Shown here: in pieces, positions 45,929-50,082 of the stretch
How positions within the stretch are numbered: the stretch's first letter is position 1
Layout of the letters: each line of letters opens with the position of its first letter
NCBI GenBank assembly: GCA_012838345.1
Contig: DUPK01000005.1
Span: 1 to 64,000, forward strand
Direction: 5' to 3'
Length of the DNA stretch: 64,000 nt
Source of the DNA: Clostridiales bacterium
Lineage (GTDB): Bacteria; Bacillota; Clostridia; Oscillospirales; Oscillospiraceae
Position numbers and translations under genes: made by a program
Notes under the pieces: generated by a model
The model's database searches: none
Seen by the model: the letters and a program-made list of their open reading frames with translations, nothing else
Told to the model about the DNA's origin: nothing

Positions 45929-45957
45929 TTGACTTTGCAAGTGTGCCGTGCTATTAT
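45929..45957 (+). promoter_or_regulatory. Promoter of the c-di-GMP-controlled matrix locus
   Basis: TTGACT (45929-45934), 17-bp spacer, TATTAT (45952-45957). Start predicted near 45964, just ahead of the first aptamer. Confidence 0.75.
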
Positions 45958-45979
45958 ATGCGTAAACTTTAATATCCAA

Positions 45980-46056
45980 GTACAAAGGCAAAACAGGTGA
46001 AAGCCTGCGACGCAAAGCTATCAGGGCCCTCGGCTTATCCAGGGCAGCCAGCTGCT
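45980..46056 (+). promoter_or_regulatory. Cyclic-di-GMP-I (GEMM-I) riboswitch, first of tandem pair
   Basis: Shows the GEMM-I core in order: GGCAAAA, a helix capped by a GAAA tetraloop (CAGGTGAAAGCCTG), the invariant GACGCAAAGC, then TATCAGGG and a GCCCT/AGGGC helix closed by CAGCCAGCTGC. The 3' end runs straight into a terminator arm, so ligand binding can decide termination. Exact P1 ends not resolved by eye. Whether c-di-GMP or cAMP-GMP is the ligand depends on the G/A specificity position and needs folding and alignment. Confidence 0.9.
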
Positions 46057-46086
46057 ACTGCTGTTTTTTGCAGTAGCTTTTTTTAT
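46054..46086 (+). terminator. Expression-platform terminator of the first riboswitch
   Basis: GCTACTGC (46054-46061) pairs with GCAGTAGC (46070-46077), followed by seven T. The 5' arm overlaps the aptamer 3' end, typical of transcriptional riboswitch control. Confidence 0.88.
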
Positions 46087-46110
46087 TGGATATTATTTAC
46101 CAGCAAACTT

Positions 46111-46190
46111 AAGAACAAGGGCAAAGCAGGCGAAAGCCTGCGACGCAAAGCTATTAGGGCCCTCGGCTTATCCAGGGCAGCCAGCTGCTA
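46111..46190 (+). promoter_or_regulatory. Cyclic-di-GMP-I (GEMM-I) riboswitch, second of tandem pair
   Basis: Same core as the first: GGGCAAAG, CAGGCGAAAGCCTG, GACGCAAAGC, TATTAGGG, GCCCT/AGGGC, CAGCCAGCTGC. Its 65-base core differs from the first by one base. The following hairpin (TACTGC/GCAGTA, 46189-46211) lacks a T-run, so this copy does not end in an evident terminator; the AAAGGAG ribosome site lies about 18 bases further on. Confidence 0.9.
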
Positions 46191-46243
46191 CTGCTGATTT
46201 CTGGGGCAGTACAAGAAATATTATTTTTAAAGGAGTATTAATA

Positions 46244-46792
46244 ATGAAAAAAGCCATTGCTTTGTTTGCTCTCGTTCTCTGTATTCTCGCAGGTCTCGTT
46301 TCCGGGAGCCTTGCCCTCTACACCAAAGAAATTGACAATATCGGTACAGGTTCGGTACTTGCCAAGAAATTTACGCTCACAGCCGAGGGAACCGAGGGTT
46401 ACGAGGACAACGTGTTGATTGCCCCGTCCGAAACCGTTACAGCAGCCTTTACAGTTTCCAATTATAGCGGCGACTATGTGACCGAGGTTGATATGGACCT
46501 CGAGATAGAAATCACAATCGGAGCTGCTACTGACAAGTATGCCATTCCCCACATCACCGCGGCGCTTCTCGACGAGGAGGGCAATCCAATTACCGGTGCG
46601 GTCTCAAGCGTGAGCGACGGCTCGGGCACGATTACCCTTACAATCGACAGGGCTTTTGAAGCCAACGTAAAATCCACGCTCGCATACAAGATAGCTCTCA
46701 CCTGGGAATCCCACGAAGACGACATAGACTTCCAGGGTCCGGACTACGGCAACAAGTACAGCGTCAAGATTATCGGCACCCAGTCTGTGTAA
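46244..46792 (+). CDS. TasA/camelysin-like protein with SipW-dependent signal peptide
   Basis: A 182-residue exported protein. A hydrophobic signal (residues 4-24) runs into LALYTKEIDNIGTGSVLAKKF, the pattern of SipW-dependent signal domains in which cleavage is followed by a short conserved N-terminus. The rest is beta-rich (AAFTVSNYSGDYVTEVDMDL, ending VKIIGTQSV), like TasA and camelysin, which form biofilm fibres or surface protease-like layers. Start has AAAGGAG eight bases upstream. It lies directly under the tandem c-di-GMP riboswitches and ends at a terminator. Fibre formation is inferred. Confidence 0.82.
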   Translation: MKKAIALFALVLCILAGLVSGSLALYTKEIDNIGTGSVLAKKFTLTAEGTEGYEDNVLIAPSETVTAAFTVSNYSGDYVTEVDMDLEIEITIGAATDKYAIPHITAALLDEEGNPITGAVSSVSDGSGTITLTIDRAFEANVKSTLAYKIALTWESHEDDIDFQGPDYGNKYSVKIIGTQSV

Positions 46793-46828
46793 CGTGTAAT
46801 TCTTTACATATTACTAATTTTGGAATAT

Positions 46829-46868
46829 AATAACCCCGATCTTAAAGTAAGACCGGGGTTATTTTTAC
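46829..46868 (+). terminator. Terminator after the TasA-like gene
   Basis: ATAACCCCG (46830-46838) with CGGGGTTAT (46854-46862), extended by TCTTA/TAAGA, then TTTTTAC. It separates high expression of the matrix protein from the downstream genes. Confidence 0.88.
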
Positions 46869-47008
46869 AGTTTATATTAGGGTATAATTATCACCGCAGA
46901 GTATTTGACGATGCGCCGCGCAAGCCGCGGCGGTCCCGCTAATTTGATTTTGCCTATAAACTGCATGCAGTAGTGACTTTGAGCAAGGGGAAAGGATTGG
47001 TCATAATA

Positions 47009-47527
47009 ATGCAACAGGTGAGAAAAGGATTGACTACGCCGGGGCAGATTGAGGAAATGAAGCGGGAGCTCATTGAGGCCCTTAACTCTCAGCACACCCC
47101 AAAACGCAAAAAGAGGAAGATTGTAAAATATATATTTAACTTTCTCTTCTTTGTAGTCATATTTGCCCTGCTCTTCGTCCTCTACCAGATAATAACTGTC
47201 AAGCGCATGGGTGAAGCGCCCAATCTTTTCGGATACTATCTCTACAGCATAGAGACTGAAAGCATGTCCCCCACCCTGCCGGTGGGAAGCGTAATCCTCT
47301 CCCGCAAGCTCGCAGACCCTTCAACGCTCAAGCAGGGGGAGATAGTAACCTTTTTTAATGTTGAAGGCAAGCGGGTAACTCACAGGATAGTACAGGTTTC
47401 AAAGGATATGGACGGCAATCCGGTTTTCCGGACCAAGGGGGACAATCCCGAAAACGATATAGACAAGGATTTCCTGACTCACGACAGAATAGAAGCAGTT
47501 TTTGTTCTGAAAATACCGCTGCTGTAA
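47009..47527 (+). CDS. sipW: Signal peptidase I, SipW type
   Basis: A 172-residue membrane peptidase: a basic N-terminus, a transmembrane helix (about 39-62), and an S26 catalytic domain. The nucleophile is Ser86 in ETESMSPTLPVG; the partner is His125 in KRVTHRIV instead of Lys, the archaeal/ER-type dyad that marks SipW. The KGDNPEND block is present. It should mature the TasA-like protein 0.2 kb upstream. Start uncertain: TTG 46997 behind AAGGGG, or ATG 47009 with AAAGGA 12 bases away; I chose the ATG. Confidence 0.9.
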   Translation: MQQVRKGLTTPGQIEEMKRELIEALNSQHTPKRKKRKIVKYIFNFLFFVVIFALLFVLYQIITVKRMGEAPNLFGYYLYSIETESMSPTLPVGSVILSRKLADPSTLKQGEIVTFFNVEGKRVTHRIVQVSKDMDGNPVFRTKGDNPENDIDKDFLTHDRIEAVFVLKIPLL

Positions 47528-47561
47528 TCCGGATAATTTTATGTGAAAGGAGGCGCTCAAG

Positions 47562-48698
47562 ATGACCGATAAGCCCGAAGCCAACGAAGCCGGGAATTCA
47601 AATACCGGGCCGGCAGAAGAGGCGCCTCTATTGAGTTTTGAAGAAAACGGGCCGGACAAGGCCGGGGAAGAAAAAGCGGCGCCGCCTCCCTCCCCCGAAG
47701 AAGTTGATAGCGGCGAACCGGAGCTGAAAAGCAACGTTGCGGTTTTTCTGCGCGACCTCTGCTCCGAGGAACATGAAAAGGACGAGCAGACAGGCCTTGT
47801 AAAGCCGCTGTTTTGCGGTGTCAATCTGACGGTTTCTGCAGGAGAAATCTGGGGCATAAGCTCAAGAAACATGATGACCGCCCGCGTGCTGTGCCAGATA
47901 ATAGGCAATATGCGCAGCTACGCCTCGGGCTTTTGCCGCCTGGGACCTCTCGGCACGATGAAAGTTAAGCGGCAGATACTCCCCCACCTTTTTTATATTG
48001 ATTCCCACGAGATGCTTTACGATAGCAAGATTGTCCTTGAGCAGTTTATGTTTTCAACCAAGCAAGTTAAGAGCGCGCTCAGCGATGTGCAGCGCCAGCT
48101 AAGGCTTTTGGAGCTTCTGGAGAGCATGGGCATGGGCTATATTGCGCTTACGAGGATAGCCGAGCTCTACGACACCGAGAAGCTGCTGCTTGAGCTCCTC
48201 ATAGCCTCCGAATCCGACTCGGGCCTTATCGTCTGCGACTGGACAAGCTACTCCTTCTCCCAGTCCGAGATTGAAATTCTCTCGAAAATCACCGAGCGCC
48301 TGCGCTACCTTGACAAGGCGGTCGTCATAGGCACCATGCAGCCCAAGCTTATCGGCATGACCTGCGACAACACCCTTTTCATCTATAAAGGTGAGAGCGT
48401 TTACTGCGGCAGCGTCGAGGAGCTTTACTCCTATGCCGACAAGGTTGCCTTTGTGCTGCGGGACAAAAACGCAAAACAGCTCGGCAGGATTATATCGTAC
48501 CTGCTCCCCGGATGGCAGGTCAGGGTCTCTGAGGACAATCTGTACTTGTACAACTACACGGACAAGCCCATGAGCCCGGAGGCCTTCTACAGGCTGCTGG
48601 CTGAAAACGGTATTTCGCCCGATTATATCAAGGTAAACAAGGGCAGGGTTGAAAACTCTTTCGAGGAACTGGTGGAGCGATATGATTTACAGAAGTAG
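47562..48698 (+). CDS. Pseudo-ABC ATPase (nucleotide motifs lost)
   Basis: A 378-residue protein. Residues 1-60 are acidic and disordered. From 60 to 300 the order of an ABC-2 ATPase is recognisable, but every motif is changed. The Walker A loop reads GISSRNMMTARVL (98-110) where GxxGxGKST is needed; the signature place reads LYDTEK (202-207) instead of LSGGQ; Walker B reads LIVCDW (222-227) without the catalytic Glu; the H-loop lacks His. It cannot bind ATP normally. Residues 310-378 resemble the C-terminal region of ABC-2 ATPases. The permease gene overlaps its end by 17 bases, so the two act together. Confidence 0.7.
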   Translation: MTDKPEANEAGNSNTGPAEEAPLLSFEENGPDKAGEEKAAPPPSPEEVDSGEPELKSNVAVFLRDLCSEEHEKDEQTGLVKPLFCGVNLTVSAGEIWGISSRNMMTARVLCQIIGNMRSYASGFCRLGPLGTMKVKRQILPHLFYIDSHEMLYDSKIVLEQFMFSTKQVKSALSDVQRQLRLLELLESMGMGYIALTRIAELYDTEKLLLELLIASESDSGLIVCDWTSYSFSQSEIEILSKITERLRYLDKAVVIGTMQPKLIGMTCDNTLFIYKGESVYCGSVEELYSYADKVAFVLRDKNAKQLGRIISYLLPGWQVRVSEDNLYLYNYTDKPMSPEAFYRLLAENGISPDYIKVNKGRVENSFEELVERYDLQK

Positions 48699-50082
48699 CA
48701 CCTTCAACAAAGAATTGCGCCAGTCATACTATGACAGCCTTTCGAGCAGGCACAAGCTGTTCATGATATGCCTTTTCATGGCGCTGATTACAATCGCTTT
48801 GCACCTTCTTTTCCAGATAACTGAGGAAAGCGTCATGGTGGAGCTATTCCCCGAGCTTCTTTTGCCGAGCTATTTCACCATGACCTATACCTACAACCTT
48901 GTGGCCTATATCTTCTTCGCCATCTTTTTTATAAACAAGTACAGCAACATAACCCTGTCCGAAATTGGGGAAAACAAGTGGTATTTGCTCTCCAAGATGG
49001 GCTATAACGTTACAAGCATTATCCTCAACAAAATGTTTATGACCGTCGTCATCGTCCTGCTTCTCTATGCCTGCGGCTTCGTGCTTACCGTTTTGCTCAC
49101 CGCCCTGTTTAAATATGTCTTTGTAATTGATTACCTCCTGCCCGCCTTTGTCGCCGGAGTTATCAATGTCCTGCTGATAGTTGAGGCGGCGCTGGTCATC
49201 TCCCTTTATTCCCACACAAAGGTCAACGCGAAAAACTCCCTGTTGATAGTGATTATCATAAACGAGATATTAAAAATCGCCCTCGGCTACTATAAACTCA
49301 TAACCGACAGGGTGCTGATGAGCGACATATCAAACCTTCTAAACCCCAGCCACTCCGTTTACGGGATTATATTACTTGCCGCCCTGGTTTTAATGATACT
49401 GTTTGCCTATATCGGAGCCAAAAGAAGGTCAAACTACTACACACTAAAGGGTGATGTGAGCGGGGTCACAATCGTCCGTCACAACGAGGTTAGGACAATT
49501 GCCCCACAGGGTCAAGGGAAGCATCCGGCCCTGTCCCTGCCGGCAATCCTATTTAGGGTCCTGTTGGCGGCAGTACTCATCGGCTCCATCGCCTTCAACA
49601 TACTTATTCTGGTGGCTTCCCTCGGCTCGAACACCCGGGAGTTTTCGGTTTTCGGCTATATCCCCTATCTTATACGGTCGCAAACCATGGAGGACGCCAT
49701 ATACAAGAACGACCTTGCGCTTTTCAAGCGGATTGATTCCAGTTACCCGCTCAAGGTGGGCGACATAGTTCTCTTCGGCAATGAAGTGGACGATAACGAT
49801 GTCTTTATAATGGAGATTATCAGGATTGACGGCGACAGGGTGCTGACCGACATGAAAAAATACCCCGTTCTTTACGAGAAGGGCTCACTTCAGCAGATAA
49901 TTGACCGCAAAGCCATATACGGAATTTTCTACGACAACTACCGGATACTAGGCGCGATTGTGCTTTTCATAAACTCCTTCCCCGGCAGAATCCTGACGCT
50001 GTTTTTGCCGGTTATCGTGTTGTTTTTCTATCCGCAGGTGACAAGTTTCATAAAGCGCTTCAGAACCGTCATGCAAGCTTAA
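48682..50082 (+). CDS. ABC-2-like permease fused to an inactive signal-peptidase-like domain
   Basis: A 466-residue membrane protein. Residues 25-245 carry six hydrophobic helices in the ABC-2 permease style. After a linker (250-285) a helix (288-312) leads into a domain that follows the S26 signal peptidase plan: GYIPYLIRSQTMEDAI aligns with the nucleophile block, but Thr335 replaces Ser, and IMEIIRIDGDRVLTD aligns with the His/Lys block, with Glu378 in place of His125 of the neighbouring SipW. A final helix (423-450) ends it. The ATG at 48682 follows GGTGGAG. Probably inactive as a peptidase; may bind the substrate or SipW. Confidence 0.68.
   Translation: MIYRSSTFNKELRQSYYDSLSSRHKLFMICLFMALITIALHLLFQITEESVMVELFPELLLPSYFTMTYTYNLVAYIFFAIFFINKYSNITLSEIGENKWYLLSKMGYNVTSIILNKMFMTVVIVLLLYACGFVLTVLLTALFKYVFVIDYLLPAFVAGVINVLLIVEAALVISLYSHTKVNAKNSLLIVIIINEILKIALGYYKLITDRVLMSDISNLLNPSHSVYGIILLAALVLMILFAYIGAKRRSNYYTLKGDVSGVTIVRHNEVRTIAPQGQGKHPALSLPAILFRVLLAAVLIGSIAFNILILVASLGSNTREFSVFGYIPYLIRSQTMEDAIYKNDLALFKRIDSSYPLKVGDIVLFGNEVDDNDVFIMEIIRIDGDRVLTDMKKYPVLYEKGSLQQIIDRKAIYGIFYDNYRILGAIVLFINSFPGRILTLFLPVIVLFFYPQVTSFIKRFRTVMQA

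Follow-up and report, generated by a model that had tools for sequence, protein, structure and literature searches.

Layout of the locus and its leader

The locus described here occupies positions 45,929 to 50,082 of a 64,000-nucleotide stretch of contig DUPK01000005.1 from a Clostridiales bacterium (assembly GCA_012838345.1). The whole stretch is referred to as the window and its genome as G000. All features of the locus lie on the plus strand: a promoter, two aptamers for cyclic diguanylate (c-di-GMP), and genes for an exported protein, a SipW-type signal peptidase, a protein with the fold of an ATP-binding cassette (ABC) ATPase from which the catalytic motifs are absent (pseudo-ABC ATPase, pABC), and a permease that carries a dead signal-peptidase domain at its C-terminal end. 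Relatives were sought with profile and six-frame searches, which included a class sample of 391 genomes. Genomes are named by G labels; G001, G002, G003, and G004 belong to the genus of the window.

A sigma-A-type promoter (TTGACT-17-TATTAT with an extended −10 element; 45,929–45,957) was located by pattern scan, and boxes of the TTGACA/TTGACT type stand at the equivalent position in the leaders of G001 and G002. Two c-di-GMP-I (GEMM-I) aptamers follow, aptamer 1 at 45,977–46,059 (RF01051, 55.7 bits, E=3.5e-8) and aptamer 2 at 46,110–46,192 (60.7 bits, E=2.1e-9). Both scores exceed the RF01051 gathering score of 35; the promoter and the aptamer pair named in the initial annotation were thus recovered, and neither aptamer failed the covariance model. 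An intrinsic terminator (46,054–46,077; −14.4 kcal/mol, z=−4.2) overlaps the end of aptamer 1. The 5' arm of this terminator, GCUACUGC, includes UACU(G), the strand by which P1 of the aptamer is closed. The mutual exclusion of P1 and terminator was found in folds from three species (the window, G001, and G002). In the window, folds downstream of aptamer 2 gave a hairpin without a U-tract.

Some GEMM-I switches are OFF switches, and the platform of aptamer 2 is ambiguous, both of which would allow the protein to be made in motile, low-c-di-GMP cells. This alternative is nevertheless unlikely, because the terminator of aptamer 1 takes the 3' strand of P1, so that ligand-stabilised P1 would prevent termination. 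On the same grounds an ON switch is predicted with good confidence. A tandem c-di-GMP-I switch in which a terminator competes with P1 was shown by experiment to be ON in Bacillus thuringiensis (PMC4759541), and tandem pairs are a common arrangement, with 347 doublets counted (PMC9481103). In six of the 11 testable genomes (G000, G001, G002, G063, G305, and G618) the exported-protein gene is immediately preceded by a GEMM-I aptamer, in tandem in the first three; these genomes represent four genera, those of the window, G063, G305, and G618. G511, in which the contig begins at the exported-protein gene, is outside this count. Control of the exported protein by c-di-GMP is regarded as highly probable.

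The exported protein, SipW, and the two pseudoenzymes

The exported protein (open reading frame at 46,244–46,792; 182 aa) has a signal segment ending ...VSGSLALYTKE, a conserved mature N-terminal motif GSVxAKxF, and a beta-rich body. The family alignment shows a common SipW-type signal segment and the mature N-terminus Y-T...G-x-V-x-A-K-x-F. Its earlier description as TasA/camelysin-like found little backing in sequence. The window protein was not matched by PF12389 (camelysin), for which the best family member reached E=0.0048 with a score under the cut-off, and comparison of the family profile with Bacillus subtilis TasA by hhalign gave a probability of 4.6, which does not support TasA membership; the protein is TasA-like by context. 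With respect to a jelly-roll fold, a search with its AlphaFold2 (AF2) model placed the TasA fibre (8aur) and Fim pilins among the top matches, all of them non-significant.

Further members of the family carry added domains. CBM_2 (cellulose-binding) is present on exported paralogues in G491, G305, G981, G618, and G063, and LRR_5 on a paralogue at another locus of G002. In G248 and G281 a mini-protein of 95–96 residues (L087:6568–6855 and L088:12302–12592) is built from the signal and the conserved N-terminal segment, followed by a tail resembling CBM5/12 (Pfam scores below threshold). Such CBM_2 paralogues and mini-proteins would be expected if a fibre had subunits for adhesion or for starting its assembly, and a starter or adhesive role is possible for the mini-proteins. 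A subunit of this kind that retains the N-terminal segment alone is expected of donor-strand assembly (compare TapA; PMC10151520). Fibre formation by the exported protein is on the whole favoured. In G001 (L042:790–1340), the exported-protein gene is apparently frameshifted near its 3' end, through either an assembly error or a real mutation.

SipW (47,009–47,527; 172 aa, with a longer reading frame from GTG at 46,973) scored 71 bits with TIGR02228 (cut-off 51.85) and matched SEC11 in the PDB (5e-9). Its catalytic residues Ser85, His125, and Asp145 are intact in the motifs ESMSPT, VTHRI, and KGDNP; the initial annotation was right about the SipW type and His125, and the nucleophile is Ser85 rather than Ser86. 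By hydropathy the window SipW has a single membrane segment and lacks the C-terminal one. With the Bacillus SipW equivalog NF046067 (cut-off 190) it reached 84.7 bits. Ser, His, and Asp are kept in 12 of the 14 genomes for which active-site motifs were tabulated; Ser and His are lost in G003 and G004 only. Cleavage of the exported protein by SipW is very probable.

The next gene (47,562–48,698; 378 aa) encodes pABC. Its family profile matches the PDB ABC ATPase 1vpl (E=5e-13), which identifies a nucleotide-binding-domain fold, and PmtC was matched weakly. The Walker A Lys, the Walker B Asp-Glu, and the LSGGQ signature are absent from every member that has the region, and the label of a pseudo-ABC protein is borne out.

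The permease gene (48,682–50,082; 466 aa) overlaps that of pABC by 17 nt in the window, as had been noticed from the letters, and encodes an ABC-2-like N-terminal membrane domain followed, from about residue 290, by a domain of about 170 residues homologous to SipW. Comparison of the permease and SipW families by hhalign gave a probability of 96.4 (E=1.3e-9). Most members have Thr at the site of the nucleophile in this domain (G305 and G248 have Ser), and the site of the base is occupied by Glu, Ser, Lys, Gly, or Ala, and never by His; the proposed fusion to a dead signal-peptidase domain is thereby confirmed. The domain retains the groove motif SxTMxPxIxxNDLxxF and, unlike the window SipW, has kept the C-terminal membrane segment. 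The N-terminal part gave a weak, low-confidence fold match to permeases of the PmtD/NosY type. An AF2 model of the permease was poor (predicted local distance difference test score, pLDDT, 50.9 from a five-sequence alignment), and a fold search with it gave no significant match.

Within the genus, pABC proteins are 56–66% identical. Omega is 0.08–0.10 for pABC and 0.10–0.29 for the permease. Catalytic motifs are missing from every member of both pseudoenzyme families, so that the dead state is the conserved one. If the pair were instead a working ABC transporter that exports the mature protein or a small peptide, pABC would have to work with another, catalytic ATPase or bind ATP in an unusual manner. 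The ABC fold of pABC and the overlap with the permease gene, as in real ABC-2 operons, agree with an exporter, but the three ATPase motifs are missing throughout, and a second ATPase gene never recurs beside the loci; this explanation is improbable.

Recurrence of the module and loci without the exported-protein gene

The full permease–pseudo-signal-peptidase fusion was found in 16 genomes from about seven families, among Clostridia that are not closely related and relatives of that class. Full-length permeases outside the genus are those of G063, G511, G491, G305, G281, G248, G943, G981, and G618; those of G1002 and G1012 are partial, their loci being cut by contig ends. The genes for SipW, pABC, and the permease adjoin in 13 of 13 testable loci, and the pABC and permease genes overlap by 11–26 nt in 14 of 14. 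G001 and G002 have the order of tandem aptamers, exported protein, SipW, (pABC), and permease at the same chromosomal place as in the window, flanked by genes for an AMP ligase and a beta-lactamase-like protein; contig ends interrupt the G001 locus, in which pABC was not observed. Exported-protein genes, one to three per locus, lie upstream in G511, G491, G305, and G618, and downstream in G281 and G248. The recurrence of the four genes together that had been sought is thus present in about seven families. Nor do the pseudo-ABC and permease genes occur mostly apart from TasA/SipW genes, as SipW adjoins the pair wherever the contig allows a check.

In the class sample the permease-positive and the exported-protein-positive genomes are the same six (1.5%). 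The chance of this coincidence is about 2e-13 for independent draws, a rough figure in view of kinship and of profile bias: the exported-protein profile was built with the positive genomes included, and the result describes the restriction of that subfamily and not of all SipW substrates. A first contig scan of all species returned the genus alone, its patterns being too narrow; the six-frame profile searches found the other families, and a genus-only oddity was rejected. In a plasmid collection no permease relatives were found, and the single clostridial SipW match (Acetoanaerobium) is without annotation.

The dead motifs and the patchy occurrence of the module (two of 11 and one of 22 genomes in two families) might suggest a SipW/TasA-type locus of the ordinary kind with a degenerating ABC transporter next to it. 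This is highly improbable: about seven families share the dead motifs, the gene order, and the overlap, omega of pABC and permease stays at 0.08–0.29 wherever it is measurable, and pABC shows the identity within the genus given above. Decay as the cause of the dead motifs is ruled out by the low omega and the identical dead motifs across families.

Several results weigh against a module that serves the fibre protein of this locus under c-di-GMP control. In G003 and G004 the exported-protein gene and the aptamers are absent from the locus, and pABC and the permease are kept. The ratio of nonsynonymous to synonymous substitution rates (dN/dS) between these two genomes is 0.095 for pABC, 0.17 for the permease, and 0.32 for a SipW in which Ser is replaced by Ala and His by Leu (0.03–0.04 for the flanking enzymes, with the invalid rows for the AMP-ligase gene of G001, from a wrong frame or strand, left out); the module is therefore not dedicated to this fibre protein alone and may have a second role. 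In G943 and G981 the exported-protein genes lie more than 4 kb from sipW, with opposite-strand genes between, and aptamers near exported-protein genes were not found in G491, G943, G981, G248, and G281. By profile comparison the exported protein belongs to neither the TasA nor the camelysin family, and its AF2 model is of low quality (pLDDT 48.8 from a two-sequence alignment). Finally, a strong intrinsic-terminator-like hairpin followed by a U-run (46,829–46,866; −18.3 kcal/mol, z=−5.2) stands between the exported-protein gene and sipW in the window, and also in G002 (by folding) and in G001 (read from sequence); the initial annotation did not mention it. Since this terminator requires read-through, riboswitch control of sipW, pABC, and the permease can only be inferred; a similar terminator with read-through is present in Clostridium perfringens sipW-bsaA (PMC7395162).

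Because the other SipWs are all intact, the loss of catalysis in G003 and G004 is derived. Both genomes have a second locus (L160:7059–13648 and L161:4173–10056) with two SipW-type peptidase genes, distant TasA-like client proteins, and an 878-residue repeat protein; these SipWs have intact active sites and a C-terminal membrane segment (read in G003). As pABC, the permease, and the dead SipW stay under purifying selection in G003 and G004, the module would function there without proteolysis, and the pattern supports a binding or scaffold role.

The same genomes also bear on a different explanation, in which pABC and the permease form a separate membrane complex (for example one that senses or regulates, or one that deals with small peptides, cleaved signal peptides among them) that binds SipW or what is left of it; this complex would not be needed for the fibre, and the exported protein would be one client among others. 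In its favour are the purifying selection on the G003/G004 pair beside a dead SipW and without the exported-protein gene, the intact SipWs with TasA-like clients elsewhere in these genomes, and the weak resemblance of the permease N-terminal part to the peptide exporter PmtD and to NosY, together with the PmtC match of pABC. Against it stand the class sample, in which the pair and the exported-protein family occur in precisely the same genomes, the adjacency to that family in nearly all genomes, and the retained SipW-like domain, which points to binding of signal peptides or preproteins. It is judged somewhat unlikely. The preferred interpretation, a c-di-GMP-controlled, SipW-dependent surface-protein system, probably of a fibre, with its own conserved pseudoenzyme membrane complex, is given an even chance as a whole. 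The dedicated, c-di-GMP-switched module first proposed, with its putative role in assembly or export quality, survives in that the gene set recurs and aptamer control of the exported protein is supported in four genera; its exclusive dedication is contradicted by G003 and G004, and control of the last three genes would depend on read-through.

Proposed mechanism and related systems

Under the preferred interpretation, high c-di-GMP would cause aptamer 1 to close P1, the overlapping terminator would be blocked, and the exported subunit would be transcribed; aptamer 2 would probably sharpen the response. The subunit would then be exported via Sec while tethered by its SipW-type signal peptide, and SipW would provide the chemistry of cleavage. 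The dead SipW domain of the permease, with its substrate-groove motifs and the membrane anchor that SipW lacks, could form a fixed platform together with cytosolic pABC. This platform would dock SipW and hold the subunit or hand it over for polymerisation in a non-proteolytic manner, as proposed for SipA of streptococcal pili, with an N-terminal donor strand as the likely model of assembly. A physical complex of SipW and the permease is considered rather probable; whether the pair acts as such a platform or has a separate function is evenly balanced. A more far-reaching proposal is put forward tentatively: a new class of Gram-positive fibre-assembly machine, in which an inactive ABC transporter with a fused inactive signal peptidase acts as a docking platform, completes a truncated SipW, and nucleates a c-di-GMP-switched, carbohydrate-binding fibre, and which in some species might serve another client wholly free of catalysis.

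Each part has known counterparts. The sipW-bsaABCRSD operon of C. perfringens (PMC7395162) likewise combines SipW with a secreted beta-rich protein that polymerises extracellularly and has the terminator mentioned above after its main subunit gene; it differs in its control by the BsaRS two-component system, and as described the operon has neither a pseudo-ABC/permease pair nor a c-di-GMP riboswitch. In B. subtilis tapA-sipW-tasA (PMC9674648, PMC10151520), a SipW-type peptidase is also dedicated to exported subunits, but control is by SinR, a pseudoenzyme module is absent, and TasA has no detectable homology to the exported protein described here. Streptococcus pyogenes SipA, a pseudo-signal peptidase essential for pilus polymerisation (PMC4049620), shares the signal-peptidase fold, the dead active site, the setting in a surface-fibre locus, and a proposed non-enzymatic binding function. 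In contrast to the permease domain, SipA stands alone in a sortase pilus locus, is of Ser-Lys-type ancestry, and is not fused to a permease; the profile match was insignificant (E=0.13), and the likeness is one of functional analogy only. The tandem riboswitch of B. thuringiensis Bc3-5 (PMC4759541) and those of the tandem survey (PMC9481103) also place paired GEMM-I aptamers before surface-protein genes, with a terminator opposed to P1 and an ON response; the genes controlled by Bc3-5 are others, and SipW and the pseudoenzyme module are absent. ABC-2 exporters of the PmtCD/NosFY type represent the probable ancestry of pABC and of the permease N-terminal domain, but have working ATPases and no signal-peptidase domain.

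No description of the present gene set was found in the literature searched (open-licence papers). The parts are of known kinds; together they probably make up a machine, not described before, that matures or assembles a surface fibre. Most known SipW-dependent fibres are those of Bacillus, with simple three-gene operons, and pseudoenzymes are usually found singly. In the loci described here SipW is linked, across about seven families, to a conserved and heavily modified ABC transporter, with both the ATPase and the fused signal-peptidase domain dead in every lineage. A gene trio with two conserved pseudoenzymes, the third member of which becomes one on loss of its partner, provides a clean natural experiment on the non-catalytic function of signal peptidases. 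The c-di-GMP switch and the cellulose-binding paralogues together point to a possible means of substrate attachment in cellulose-degrading anaerobes.

RF01051 has four matches in the genome of the window, two of them at this locus. A third (L032:9183–9270, G000:C28) precedes genes for a prepilin-peptidase-like protein and a Flp-type pilin, so that two types of surface appendage seem to be switched by c-di-GMP in G000. The fourth (L033:8888–8973, G000:C24, minus strand) has an aspS-like gene on one side and a hemW-like radical-SAM gene on the other; the target is unusual, and a short open reading frame in the gap is possible. In G063 a second GEMM-I aptamer (L162:115–199, minus strand) follows a gene for a 132-residue, SipW-signal-like, low-complexity protein and faces the end of the contig, beyond which a further subunit gene probably lies. 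A GGDEF-like open reading frame just upstream of the CBM-bearing exported-protein gene of G943 (L103:11622–11954) gives a hint of c-di-GMP linkage. In G248 a TwoAYGGAY RNA (RF01731, 55.3 bits; L088:12024–12181) stands directly before the gene for the CBM5/12-like mini-subunit.

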